Shown piece after piece: positions 1 to 40,192 of a DNA stretch of 55,800 bases. A program made the translations under genes and the position numbers. Origin of the DNA: Alphaproteobacteria bacterium (GTDB taxonomy: Bacteria; Pseudomonadota; Alphaproteobacteria; Thalassobaculales; Thalassobaculaceae); NCBI GenBank assembly GCA_013203465.1, contig JABMNR010000208.1, positions 1 through 55,800 on the forward strand, written 5' to 3'. Position 1 is the stretch's first letter. Each line of letters opens with the position of its first letter. Below the pieces are notes generated by a model that saw nothing but the letters and a program-made list of their open reading frames with translations, did no database searches and was not told where the DNA came from.

Positions 1-734
1 CGACCAAGGATATTGCCTTGGCGGAGATCGCCGAACATTTAGCGGACGCGCAAGGCGTGCGGGTTCATCCCACGACGGTTTGGTACTTCCTGTCCAAGCG
101 CGGTCTGACGCATAAAAAAAGACCGGGCACGCGGCCGAGCAGGAGCGCCCGGACGTCCAGGCCCGGCGTCGGGACTGGTTCGACGGTCAACTCGACCTTG
201 ATCCGGAACGGCTGATTTTCATCGACGAGACCGGAGCGAATACCAAGATGGCCCGGCTTCGTGGCTGGTCGGCCAAGGGCGAACGCTGCCGCGCGTCAAT
301 CCCGCACGGGCACTGGAGAACAACGACCTTCACGGCGGGCTTGAGGCTGTCGGGCGTGGCCGCGCCGATGCTGCTGGACGGACCGATGCACGGCACCGCC
401 TTCCTGGCCTATGTCGAGCATGTGCTGGTCCCGGAGCTGACAGACGGCGATATCGTGGTCATGGATAACCTCGCCTCGCACAAAGTCGCCGGCGTGCGCG
501 AGTTGATCGAGGCCACCGGCGCCAGGCTGCTGTACCTGCCGCCCTACAGCCCCGACTTCAATCCGATCGAGATGGCCTTCTCCAAACTCAAGGCCCTGCT
601 CCGAAAAGCCGCCGCCCGCACCAAGGCCGATCTCTGGGACGCTATCGCACACGCCATCGAAGCCTTCACGCCAACCGAATGTGAAAACTACTTCGCCGCC
701 GCCGGATATGATCGAAACTAAATTGAAGGCGCTC
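1..734 (+). mobile_element. IS630-family insertion sequence, right part
   Basis: The left end of the element lies outside the window. It carries a two-frame IS630-type transposase and ends at gcgctc (729-734), followed by a TA dinucleotide (735-736), the expected IS630/Tc1-mariner target duplication. Immediately beyond the end, the minus strand reads as the N-terminal part of a LysR-type regulator, so the element sits inside that gene. The right boundary is inferred from the shared TA-plus-GAGC end logic and the resumption of host coding sequence; the left boundary cannot be checked. Confidence 0.8.
3..721 (+). CDS. IS630-family transposase, two frames joined by a frameshift, 5'-partial
   Basis: Cut-and-paste DNA transposase. 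The first frame (open from the window edge to 215) encodes the C-terminal part of the helix-turn-helix DNA-binding region, with [19 protein letters not shown] typical of the IS630 second helix-turn-helix. The second frame (about 121-721) encodes the DDE catalytic domain: FIDETG (first Asp), [10 protein letters not shown] (second Asp) and [11 protein letters not shown] (Glu), in the usual order and spacing. The two frames meet at a run of seven A residues followed by G (114-121). Reading one base back there joins THKK to [16 protein letters not shown] with no gap, which gives a normal IS630 transposase. This is known of other IS630 elements, where -1 ribosomal or transcriptional slippage makes the fusion. 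The stop is TAA at 719-721, just inside the element end. The alternative is a plain inactivating indel. Confidence 0.85.
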
Positions 735-866
735 TAGCCGATCCTCCAGCGCCTGGACGTGCTTGCTGACCACCGCGCGCGACAGCCCCAGGCGCTCGGC
801 GGCGATGGTGAAGCTCTCCGCCTCGGCGACGGCGACAAAGGTTTCGGTCTGGCTGAGGCGATCCAT
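735..866 (-). pseudogene. LysR-family regulator, N-terminal fragment broken by IS630
   Basis: About 43 residues of a LysR-type transcriptional regulator remain, starting at ATG 866: MDRLSQTETFVAVAEAESF, then AAERLGLSRAVVSKHVQALE, the classic LysR winged helix-turn-helix. The frame then runs into the IS630 end and stops inside the element (666) after unrelated residues. The effector-binding domain is missing here; it may lie beyond the left end of the element, outside the window. The fragment is divergent from the doxX-like and dioxygenase genes, an arrangement in which LysR proteins commonly regulate their divergent neighbour. Loss of the regulator may leave those genes unregulated. Confidence 0.8.
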
Positions 867-36522: not shown

Positions 36523-37689
36523 CTATACCCGCGTCAACCGATCCTCGACCAACTGGGCCCAATAACTGGCGCCGTGGGCCAGGGCCTCGTCGTTGAAGTC
36601 GTAATCCGGATGGTGCACCCCGGCGGTGTCGCCATTGCCGGCCCAGATGTAGGCGCCAGGCCGCACGTTCAGCATGTAGGAGAAATCCTCGGCCCCCATC
36701 ACCGGGCGCGGTGCCCGGTCGACCCGCTCGGCACCGGCCACCCGCTCGGCCACCTGGGCGGCGACCGCAGCCTGCTCGGCGTCGTTGATGGTGGCGGGGT
36801 ATCCCTTGATATAGTTCAACTCCGCCGTCGCGCCGAAGGTGGCGCTGACCCCGTCCATGATGCGGCCGATCCGCTCCGGTAGGCTTTGCTGGATCACCGG
36901 ATCGAACACCCGGCAAGTGCCGCGCAGCACGATCTGGTCCGGCACGATGTTGAAGGCATGGCCGGCGTGGAACTGGGTGACCGACAGCACCAGCGCGTCG
37001 CGGGGGTTCAGGTTACGGCTGGTGATGGTCTGCAACGCCATCACCATGTGGGCGCCGACCACCACCGGATCGATGCCCTGATGCGGCATGGCGGCGTGGC
37101 TGCCCTTGCCGGTGATGGTGATCTCGAAGTTGTCGCGCGCCGCCATCATCGGCCCCGGCGCCACCGCGAAATGGCCGACCGGGATGCCGGGGATGTTGTG
37201 CATGCCCCAGACCGTGTCGCACGGAAACAGCTCGAACAGCCCTTCCTGCACCATCTTGTCGCCGCCACCGAGGCCCTCCTCGGCCGGTTGGAAGATGAAG
37301 TGCACGGTGCCGTCGAAGTTCTTGTTCTCCGCCAGATACTTGGCGGCGCCGAGCAGCATGGTGGTGTGGCCGTCATGACCGCAGGCGTGCATCACCCCGT
37401 CATTGGTTGAGCGGTGGGGACGCTCGCCCTCGCCCCGCTCCAGGATCGGCAGCGCGTCCATATCGGCCCGCAATCCGATCGAGCGGTCTCCCGTGCCCGC
37501 CTTCAGGGTGCCGATGACGCCGGTACCGGCCATGCCACGATGCACCTCGATGCCCATCGCCTCCAGTTTGGCGGCGACCACGTCGCTGGTGCGGTGCTCT
37601 TGGAACCCGAGTTCCGGATGGGCGTGCAGGTCACGGCGCCACTCGGTCAACTCGGGGGCGAACTCGGCGATGCGGTTGATGATCGGCAT
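36523..37689 (-). CDS. M20 family amidohydrolase, hippurate hydrolase-like (copy 1)
   Basis: A 388-residue metal-dependent aminoacylase/amidohydrolase of the HipO/IAA-amino acid hydrolase type. WRRDLHAHPELGFQEHRTS opens the chain, HACGHDGHTTMLLGAAKYL carries metal ligands, FQPAEEGLGGG the catalytic Glu, and VMGAEDFSYML the terminal metal block; the insertion domain carries KGSHAAMPHQGIDP. It would hydrolyse N-acyl amino acids such as hippurate. A close paralogue follows on the same strand 10 bases upstream, so the pair is a tandem duplication. ATG 37689 follows GAGG. Confidence 0.9.
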   Translation of the reverse strand: MPIINRIAEFAPELTEWRRDLHAHPELGFQEHRTSDVVAAKLEAMGIEVHRGMAGTGVIGTLKAGTGDRSIGLRADMDALPILERGEGERPHRSTNDGVMHACGHDGHTTMLLGAAKYLAENKNFDGTVHFIFQPAEEGLGGGDKMVQEGLFELFPCDTVWGMHNIPGIPVGHFAVAPGPMMAARDNFEITITGKGSHAAMPHQGIDPVVVGAHMVMALQTITSRNLNPRDALVLSVTQFHAGHAFNIVPDQIVLRGTCRVFDPVIQQSLPERIGRIMDGVSATFGATAELNYIKGYPATINDAEQAAVAAQVAERVAGAERVDRAPRPVMGAEDFSYMLNVRPGAYIWAGNGDTAGVHHPDYDFNDEALAHGASYWAQLVEDRLTRV

Positions 37690-37699
37690 GGGGGCCTCC

Positions 37700-38866
37700 T
37701 CAGGCGCGGGCCAGTTCGGTTTCGATCAGGGTGGACCAATAGCTGGCGCCGTGGGCCAGGGCCTCGTCGTTGAAGTCGTAATCCGGATGGTGCACGGCGG
37801 CGCTATCGCCGTTGCCGACCAGGATGTAGGCGCCCGGCACCGCCTCCATCATTGTGGCGAAATCCTCCGAGCCCATCAGCGCATCGATCCCAGTGTTCAC
37901 CCGTTCCGCGCCCGCCACCTTGCGGGCGGCGGCGATCGCGTCGTCGGTCGGCGCGTCGGCGTTGAACGTCACCGGAAAGGTCTTGCGGTAGTCGATCTCG
38001 GCGCTGGCACCATGGGTCGCGCACACCCCGTCGACGACCCGCTGGAACCGTTCCGGCAAGCTGGCATGAATGTCGCGGTCGAGGGTCCGGCAGGTGCCGC
38101 GCAGGGTGACCGCGTCCGGGATCACGTTGAACGCGTCGCCGGCGTGGAACTCGGTGACCGACACCACCAGCGAGTCCTGGGCGGCGATGGTACGGCTGGC
38201 CAGGGTCTGGAGCGCGATCACCACGCTGGAGCCGACGATCACCGGGTCGACGCCTTGTTCCGGCATCGCGGCATGGGCGCCACGGCCTTGGATGCGCACC
38301 TCGAAGATATCGCCGGCCGCCAGCAGGGCGCCCGGCCGGATCGCGAATTCGCCCACCGGCAGCCCCGGCATGTTGTGCATGCCGTAGACCTTTTCGCAGG
38401 GGAATTGCTGGAACAGCCCGTCCTCGACCATCTTGATCGCCCCGCCCAGGCCCTCCTCGGCCGGTTGGAAGATGAAGTGGATGGTGCCGTCGAAATTCTT
38501 GTTCTCGGCCAGGTATTTGGCGGCACCCAGGAGCATGGTGGTGTGACCGTCATGGCCGCAGGCGTGCATCACCCCGTCATTCTGGCTGCGGTACGGCCGG
38601 TCGCCGACGCCGCGCTCCAGGATCGGCAGGGCGTCCATGTCGGCGCGCAGGCCGATCCGCCGGTCGCCCGATCCCGCCTTGAGCACCCCGACCACCCCGG
38701 TGCCGCCCAGGCCACGATGCACCTCGATACCCCATTCCTGGAGCTTGGCGGCGACGATATCGCTGGTGCGGCTTTCCTGGAACCCGAGTTCCGGATGGGC
38801 GTGCAGGTCACGGCGCCATTCGGTCATCTCCGGCGCGAACTCGGCGATGCGGTTGACGATCGGCAT
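37700..38866 (-). CDS. M20 family amidohydrolase, hippurate hydrolase-like (copy 2)
   Basis: A 388-residue paralogue of the downstream gene. The same metal-binding and catalytic blocks are present (HACGHDGHTTMLLGAAKYL, FQPAEEGLGG, ALMGSEDFATMM). The first 60 residues differ from copy 1 at about ten positions by eye, whereas the domain around 230-320 differs more, which may alter substrate range. ATG 38866 is chosen because it aligns with copy 1 and has GGAGG nine bases upstream; an open frame of 35 codons before it is not conserved. Transcription probably reads copy 2 then copy 1. Confidence 0.9.
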   Translation of the reverse strand: MPIVNRIAEFAPEMTEWRRDLHAHPELGFQESRTSDIVAAKLQEWGIEVHRGLGGTGVVGVLKAGSGDRRIGLRADMDALPILERGVGDRPYRSQNDGVMHACGHDGHTTMLLGAAKYLAENKNFDGTIHFIFQPAEEGLGGAIKMVEDGLFQQFPCEKVYGMHNMPGLPVGEFAIRPGALLAAGDIFEVRIQGRGAHAAMPEQGVDPVIVGSSVVIALQTLASRTIAAQDSLVVSVTEFHAGDAFNVIPDAVTLRGTCRTLDRDIHASLPERFQRVVDGVCATHGASAEIDYRKTFPVTFNADAPTDDAIAAARKVAGAERVNTGIDALMGSEDFATMMEAVPGAYILVGNGDSAAVHHPDYDFNDEALAHGASYWSTLIETELARA

Positions 38867-38963
38867 GGACGGAACCTCCCGGAAATAGAGCCTGGGTTGC
38901 TGGTGCGCGTAACCGGGAGTATCGAACCAGAGCAGCACGATCGCAAGCCGGAGACGGTGCCAA

Positions 38964-39506
38964 ATGAGCACGCCACCCGTTCCGACCGTGGAAACCGAGC
39001 GGATGATCCTGCGTGGTTTCCGCGACGACGACCACGCGGCCTACACCGCGATGCGCGCCGACCCGGAGGTGGTGCGCTATCTGATCGGTGGCGAGGCGCT
39101 GATCCCGTTTGCCGAGGAAATCGCCGCCTCCCGCATCGCCGCGTTCAATGAAGGGTGGCGGCGCGGGTACGGGGTGTGGGCGGTTGAGGACCGGGTGACC
39201 GGACAGCTGATCGGCCAGGCCGGTCTCGCCCGGCTTGAACGGTCCGAGCATGTCGAGGTGCTGTATGCCTTCGCCAAACCCTGGTGGGGCCGGGGCCGCG
39301 CCCGCGAGGCGGCGCGCGCGGCGCTGCGGTTCGGTTTCGAGACGGCGGGCCTCGACCGGATCGTCGGTTTCGTGGTGCCGGAGAACGCCGCCTCGGCGCG
39401 GGTGCTGGAAGTCGCCGGCCTGCGCTCGATCGGCACGATCGAGTACAACGGGTTCTCGGTACTCGGTTACGCGATCACCGCCGAGGAATGGCGGCGGACG
39501 AGCTAG
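38964..39506 (+). CDS. GNAT acetyltransferase (RimJ/RimL-like)
   Basis: A 180-residue acetyltransferase. TVETERMILRGFRDDDHAAY is the RimJ/RimL-type opening. EVLYAFAKPWWGRGRAREAA is the acetyl-CoA Arg/Gln-x-x-Gly-x-Gly/Ala block (GRGRA), and IVGFVVPENAASARVLEVAG the conserved Asn/Ser segment. It may acetylate a ribosomal or other protein N-terminus, a polyamine or a drug; nothing decides which. The stop TAG is formed by the end of the double-hairpin element that follows, so the present C-terminus may be slightly altered by that insertion. Confidence 0.88.
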   Translation: MSTPPVPTVETERMILRGFRDDDHAAYTAMRADPEVVRYLIGGEALIPFAEEIAASRIAAFNEGWRRGYGVWAVEDRVTGQLIGQAGLARLERSEHVEVLYAFAKPWWGRGRAREAARAALRFGFETAGLDRIVGFVVPENAASARVLEVAGLRSIGTIEYNGFSVLGYAITAEEWRRTS

Positions 39507-39644
39507 AGCAGATCGTGAGAAATCCGAGCCATTTAGTGGCTCGGATTGCTCTCGTGAATCTGCTCTATCCTATTGAATAAGAGGGCGATTCACGACCAAT
39601 ACCGAGTCACTTACGTGACTCGGTATTGGTCGATCGCGCTCTAG
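39503..39644. repeat. 142-bp double-hairpin, MITE-like repeat with TA-flanked ends
   Basis: It begins CTAGAGC and ends GCTCTAG. TA at 39504-39505 and at 39642-39643 with GAGC ends match the IS630-type target duplication seen at 732-736 (gcgctcTA). Inside are two imperfect palindromes. The first (39504-39567) has arms pairing at TAGAGCAGAT and AATCCGAGCCA around a 5-base loop. The second (about 39576-39643) has a perfect 17-bp stem, gaccaataccgagtcac, around TTAC. The two stems share an AAT(A)CCGAG(T/C)CA core, so they may be old copies of one unit. Both flanking genes end inside it: GNAT at TAG 39504-39506, pCuC at 39641-39643. Confidence 0.7.
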
Positions 39645-40192
39645 TTGGTCTTCCGGTGTGTGCCGTGGACGCCGCGGCTATGGGACGCGCCCATCGCACC
39701 GACCGAGCCGATCTCGACGGTCACCGTGATCTCCCCTGCCCGCTCGAACACCAGCGTCAGCGTAAAGCTCTCGCCTTCCGTCAGCGGCGCCGTCAGCCCC
39801 ATGAACATCACGTGATCGCCGCCGGGCTTGAGCGAGGCCTTGCCGCCGGCGGGAATGTCGACCGCCGCGATCGGCCGCATCTTCATCACACCCCCTTCAT
39901 GCCGGTGGGTGTGCAGCTCGACCCGCTTGGCGACGTCGGCCTTGGCCGCGACTAGGCGATCAGCCCCAGACCCAGCGTTGTGGATCGTCAGATAGGCGGC
40001 GCCGGTCTTCGCCGGCCCGGCCGAGGCGCGGGCGAACGCGGCGGTGACCGAAATGGCCGCGTGCTGCTGGCTGCCGGACGCAAGCTGGGTCATCGCGGCC
40101 GGATGCGTGTGGGGACGCGGGAGATCGTGGGCAGCGGCCGCTATCGGCATCAGAGCGAGCGCCGCGATCAGCGGCCATGCAAGAGGTTTCAT
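39641..40192 (-). CDS. Periplasmic PCu(A)C-type copper chaperone
   Basis: A 183-residue secreted protein. A signal peptide (MKPLAWPLIAALALMPIAAA) precedes a His-rich linker and the PCuAC beta-barrel. The Cu(I) ligand set is visible: VELHTHRHEGGVMKMR (first His and Met) and PGGDHVMFMGL (second His and Met). The family delivers copper to cytochrome oxidases, for instance the cbb3 enzyme encoded at 18.8 kb, or to Cu-A. ATG 40192 gives the signal peptide; a longer frame upstream is not convincing. Its stop codon belongs to the double-hairpin element, which may have clipped or altered the original C-terminus. Confidence 0.88.
   Translation of the reverse strand: MKPLAWPLIAALALMPIAAAAHDLPRPHTHPAAMTQLASGSQQHAAISVTAAFARASAGPAKTGAAYLTIHNAGSGADRLVAAKADVAKRVELHTHRHEGGVMKMRPIAAVDIPAGGKASLKPGGDHVMFMGLTAPLTEGESFTLTLVFERAGEITVTVEIGSVGAMGASHSRGVHGTHRKTN

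Follow-up and report, generated by a model that had tools for sequence, protein, structure and literature searches.

A double-hairpin element at the shared stop codons of two convergent genes: a probable IS630-type MITE with a preference for CTAG

Between a GNAT acetyltransferase gene and a PCu(A)C copper chaperone gene of an alphaproteobacterium lies a 142-bp double hairpin (39503-39644), bordered by CTAG on each side. The window referred to below is the whole stretch analyzed, 55,800 nucleotides of contig JABMNR010000208.1. We consider it probable, at roughly 85%, that we are dealing with an IS630-type MITE whose target is the TA within CTAG, also where CTAG belongs to a stop codon, and whose insertion restores TAG at either border. 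The insertion most likely left both proteins unchanged, because the element's own ends spell the stop signal. The features concerned are as follows.

1..736, + strand: IS630-family element of which the contig edge leaves the right portion; its right terminus is GCGCTCTA, then G
38964..39506, + strand: GNAT acetyltransferase gene; TAG stop at 39504-39506 (left border TAG)
39503..39644, no strand assigned: element with its CTAG borders, from sequence and copies
39503-39509 and 39638-39644: left end CTAGAGC and right end GCTCTAG
39504-39505 and 39642-39643: border TA copies
39506-39641: element body GAGC...GCTC, 136 bp, between the two TA copies
39504..39567, no strand assigned: hairpin A, TAGAGCAGATCGTGAG...CTCTCGTGAATCTGCTCTA, from the fold; single occurrences elsewhere in the genome, e.g. 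at locus L009
39568..39578, no strand assigned: connector joining hairpins A and B, from the fold and copies; comparable short connectors occur in other genomes
39579..39643, no strand assigned: hairpin B, with outer end GCGCTCTA
39594-39610 and 39615-39631: perfect 17-bp stem of hairpin B, loop TTAC
39641..40192, - strand: copper chaperone gene (PCu(A)C); stops at TAG, read as the complement of 39641-39643 (right border TAG)

The window also contains two adjacent and clearly similar genes, at 36523-37689 and 37700-38971, which resemble amidohydrolases.

The coordinates, the CTAGAGC ends, the TA at both boundaries and the perfect 17-bp stem given for this element in a preliminary description of the window are correct on the sequence. 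That description also called the two stems related to each other, which is true of the arm ends (TAGAGC..GAT[TCA]CG in both hairpins) but not of the inner stems, which are different; in a BLAST search of the element against its own genome, each hairpin aligned solely to its own reverse complement and not to the other hairpin. Folded as single-stranded DNA, the stretch 39480-39670 reaches -64.8 kcal/mol versus a shuffle mean of -25.9 (z -12.7), and 0 of 200 shuffles folded equally well.

Searching the element's own genome at E<=10 gave 35 matches, several of which are the two arms of one copy matching each other. The genome holds several full-length or near-full-length copies (85-89% identity), along with single hairpins of about 65 bp and truncated pieces; the objection foreseen in the preliminary description, that no further copies might exist, thus fails. 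TA flanks the element on both sides at this locus and in most copies with intact ends, while copies L003 and L005 have each lost one border TA. Being short, non-coding, multicopy and equipped with inverted ends, the element has the properties by which a MITE is recognized, and the earlier MITE-like reading stands: this double hairpin is dispersed, has TA flanks and agrees in its ends with an IS630 group.

Open reading frames and gene calls confirm that both flanking genes stop in the element's terminal TAGs, and their products were identified by Pfam as Acetyltransf_3 (GNAT, 1.3e-30) and PCuAC (copper chaperone, 5.7e-40). It had been proposed from these stops that insertion fixed the C-termini of both proteins, either cutting the genes short or giving them other stops, and hence new ends. 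The position of the stops agrees with this idea, as does the variability of GNAT ends among relatives, but we regard it as very improbable and rejected it on the evidence of a rebuilt empty site, the PCu(A)C orthologues and a pair of GlnQ proteins. Removing the body and one TA in silico (138 bp) gives GCGGCGGACGAGCTAGTTGGTC. In this rebuilt site, ...GAGCTAGTTGG..., the CTAG carries both stops, one per strand, and both proteins stop at unchanged residues, with the C-termini EEWRRTS (GNAT) and HRKTN (PCu(A)C) that they have with the element in place. The end of PCu(A)C appears to be ancestral: its last residue is the same Asn in 14 of 29 listed relatives and His in 11 of 29, with the stop free of any such element. 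Orthologues thus end alike with no repeat present, an outcome that the preliminary description had itself named as contrary to its claim. GlnQ gives the clearest case among the related copies: with the element, in genome G015, the protein ends in LSQILAH followed by TAG, and its counterpart in G005, a genome of the same genus that lacks the element, has the very same last residue, LSQILAH followed by TAA. GNAT ends differ among 15 relatives, with stops 6 to 105 bases past the alignment, and since they vary, GNAT alone decides nothing on this question. In genome G003, the same convergent pair occurs without the element, with 72 bp separating the stops. None of the genomes compared, among which this one is the sole member of its genus, showed this locus itself as a true empty site.

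We therefore favor silent insertion, by a mechanism that would run as follows. The element would be a non-autonomous IS630-type (Tc1/mariner-like) MITE of two hairpins, and its target here would have been the TA of a CTAG formed by the 4-base overlap of the TAG stops of two convergent genes. The TA would be duplicated on insertion, and, as the body begins with G on either strand (GAGC...GCTC), each side would again read TA followed by G, leaving both proteins as they were. The mover would presumably be an IS630 transposase. Stops, we infer, would be hit because CTAG is rare inside the genes of these GC-rich genomes and because insertion at TAG or TAA is silent.

Related copies prefer CTAG and repeatedly occupy stop codons, with gene ends that look native. 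In the element's own genome, a gene ends in a border TAG at 5 of the 16 loci examined. At two of these, genes end there on both sides: the present locus (L001, where the right-hand gene end, at 1639 in AACTAG, is the terminal TAG) and L002, where the stretch 1502-1641 is a second copy with gene stops at both ends, flanked by enoyl-CoA hydratase-like and xylose-isomerase-like genes. An orthologue search for the L002 double-stop site found it in one of 37 genomes, L002's own. Twelve further TAGAGC sites lie in the window apart from the element ends and the IS end, and no gene stop coincides with any of them.

An order-level search at E<=1e-6 found matches in 2 of 36 genomes, the element's own and G015, where they are partial; the other 34 gave no match. 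A locus of G015 (L088) does contain a double hairpin whose ends are the same and whose inner stems differ. We also scanned genome contigs with the end pattern of hairpin A, TAGAGCAGATTCACG...CGATCTGCTCTA, which occurs in at least 116 stretches, in other alphaproteobacteria; the exact 29-base core pattern had no match in genome contigs. The 80 titles among the matches listed name alphaproteobacteria, except for one that gives just "Proteobacteria", and many rows belong to Siccirubricoccus. Many pattern matches, among those listed, are double hairpins with a short connector and constant ends. Across loci L121-L236, the hairpin ends are constant and the inner stems are genome-specific, as if each lineage had amplified its own founder. 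At L144, L183, L189 and L211, elements are nested in or abut each other: a second TAGAGC...GCTCTA unit uses the TA that ends the first, and L211 is a tandem hairpin repeat. The CTAG at an element's end itself seems to act as a target. In the right flank of three loci from different genomes (L140, L174 and L226), GCAGGCTGCTGAAA follows directly after the element's CTA, and may be the terminus of a different insertion sequence likewise using CTAG.

We took a census of gene ends at 117 copies among the matches listed, relying on the exact end motif and on a simple, home-made gene caller based on codon usage; both ends could be assigned in 59 copies, the left end of L204 being doubtful. The caller found 57 genes in the window, covering 93% of it and including the GNAT and PCu(A)C genes. 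Over these 117 listed copies, the terminal TAG is exactly the end of a gene 43 times (31 right, 12 left), and two genes run past it, one ending deeper in the element and one reading through. Against a null in which random truncation would place two thirds of gene ends beyond the border TAG, this 43 to 2 frame bias has a binomial p of 1.4e-18, to be read with the fact that the copies are not all independent: many are from Siccirubricoccus phaeus, and L121 and L236 look like one site. The bias tells against newly created C-termini. The would-be empty site is CTAG in 47 of the 59 listed copies with both borders, compared with 312 of 10512 background TA sites. Among extragenic copies with both ends assigned (matches listed), 28 of 58 are stop-associated, versus 53 of 226 background extragenic CTAG sites (Fisher p 3e-4), a background that includes unmasked elements of other kinds. 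At 27 of the 29 stop-associated ends with both borders, among the matches listed, the empty site would retain TAG or TAA.

Family profiles were compared with 32 proteins, comprising 25 of the 43 from the census, five from other copies in the element's own genome and the two window proteins. In 21 of them the match stops no more than 5 positions short of the profile's end and no more than 50 residues from the end of the protein; five have no profile match and six, L146 and L008 among them, are uninformative or short. In L146 and L008 the match falls short of the profile's end, as the idea of new C-termini would have it, and these two are possible truncations.

For the mobility of the element, we turn to the IS630 family. 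The window IS630 and the element have identical last 8 bases, GCGCTCTA, bearing out the earlier remark that the two end by the same logic, and the window IS630 is a possible source of transposase. Its reading frame falls into two parts, 3-215 and 248-721, near seven consecutive A's, which would fit programmed frameshifting or decay. Its relatives in the same genome sit mostly at contig ends; one IS630 left end there is TAGAGCAACTTT and the window right end is TAGAGCGCCTTC, and ten IS right ends of this genome continue with G in seven cases and A in three. In related IS630s at 10 plasmid loci, 15 ends were placed and all start with TAGAGC, although these ends were located by TAGAG/CTCTA, so that agreement in those letters is to some extent built in, which is not so for the TA, the C border or the bases beyond. 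A C border, making CTAG, is present at 13 of these 15 ends, and 12 bases, TAGAGCAGATTC, are common to the A-hairpin motif and the right ends of two plasmid IS630s. Beyond the termini, similarity between the element and IS left ends is weak: one of three comparisons stands above shuffles (10 of 1000 shuffles reach its score), and the score of the own-genome left end is reached by 189 of 1000. No IS630 was found within the at least 116 pattern loci. IS630 is reportedly inclined to transpose to the TA in CTAG, going by the title of a 1991 paper of Tenzen and Ohtsubo. An IS630-family transposase, that of ISY100, duplicates TA in vitro (PMC2170065). Given the common ends, the CTAG borders and the TA duplication of ISY100, IS630-type mobility is, as read from sequence, well supported. 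Two hairpins with a short connector, in many copies per genome, would also describe a REPIN-like element moved by a RAYT (REP-associated tyrosine) transposase instead of by IS630, but we hold this to be extremely improbable, as the TA borders, the inverted TAGAGC ends and the CTAG preference fit IS630.

Hairpins as strong as these might instead have been retained for a function, as a bidirectional transcription terminator or a 3'-end stabilizer of convergent genes. The settings of the copies lend this some weight, with convergent pairs at 43 of the 92 classifiable copies among the matches listed, versus 89 of 588 background pairs. The 117 listed copies comprise 43 in convergent, 39 in tandem and 10 in divergent settings and 25 at locus edges, and the background comprises 89 convergent, 385 tandem and 114 divergent pairs, the unit being gene pairs and not intergenic length. 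Stop targeting together with the loss of harmful insertions would, however, also yield a convergent bias, and the pairing decays among copies: across seven copies compared, there are 16 broken pair cells, and a double-sided change is seen in merely 2 of 50 pairs, a pattern of decay and not of covariation. Nor was an intrinsic terminator (a GC-rich hairpin followed by a T run) found in 39503-39644, and that candidate was rejected. We consequently think retention for such a function unlikely, and the two-way terminator-like structure of the preliminary description is not borne out, there being no terminator-like site in the element and the pairing decaying in the seven copies. Membership in a known RNA family was also rejected, the sole Rfam matches being to eukaryotic miRNA models far below their gathering cut-offs.

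Set beside known systems, an element of IS630 type has the TAGAGC-type ends of the group in the window, TA duplication and CTAG borders in common with the IS630 family, but codes for nothing, consists of two hairpins and is hardly similar to the IS in its interior. RUP of Streptococcus pneumoniae is likewise a MITE, of about 100 bp, with TA ends and an IS630 (IS630-Spn1) as its proposed mover; we compare it by description, and the available part of the source makes no mention of a stop-codon habit (PMC2229807). The CIR repeats of Caulobacter and Brucella, also compared by description from the same source, are alphaproteobacterial and intergenic with TA ends, but are given there as having no terminal inverted repeats (PMC2229807). 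MITEPsy1 of Pseudomonas syringae is a MITE with CTAG among its targets, but its target duplication has 4 bases (CTAG or YTAA) and its presumed ancestor is ISPsy2, the part of the source at hand drawing no link to IS630 (PMC3189936). A review, in its section 10, gives the insertion sites of prokaryotic MITEs as intergenic and, for one, as 3' untranslated regions (PMC10969869). In the literature searched, whose coverage was limited, we found no description of the hairpin family and its end sequences, nor of the use of stop codons as a "safe harbour."

The insertion chemistry is already known, and the stop-codon pattern is the interesting part. We suggest, tentatively and at a little under even odds, that a broad and fast-changing family of double hairpins in the alphaproteobacteria uses stops, including the shared stops of convergent genes, as safe harbours: ends that start with G would make TA into TAG on both strands, so that insertion at TAG or TAA would be silent for one or two proteins. 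If this is true, each insertion would leave two fresh CTAG sites for later elements, giving rise to nested or tandem elements. An element-supplied stop codon need not mean an altered protein, and caution is due in reading one as such. The CTAG preference reported for IS630 would gain a simple genomic consequence, testable in any annotated genome, and a mobile element may build up harmlessly in compact genomes when its ends encode the signal present at its favorite target.
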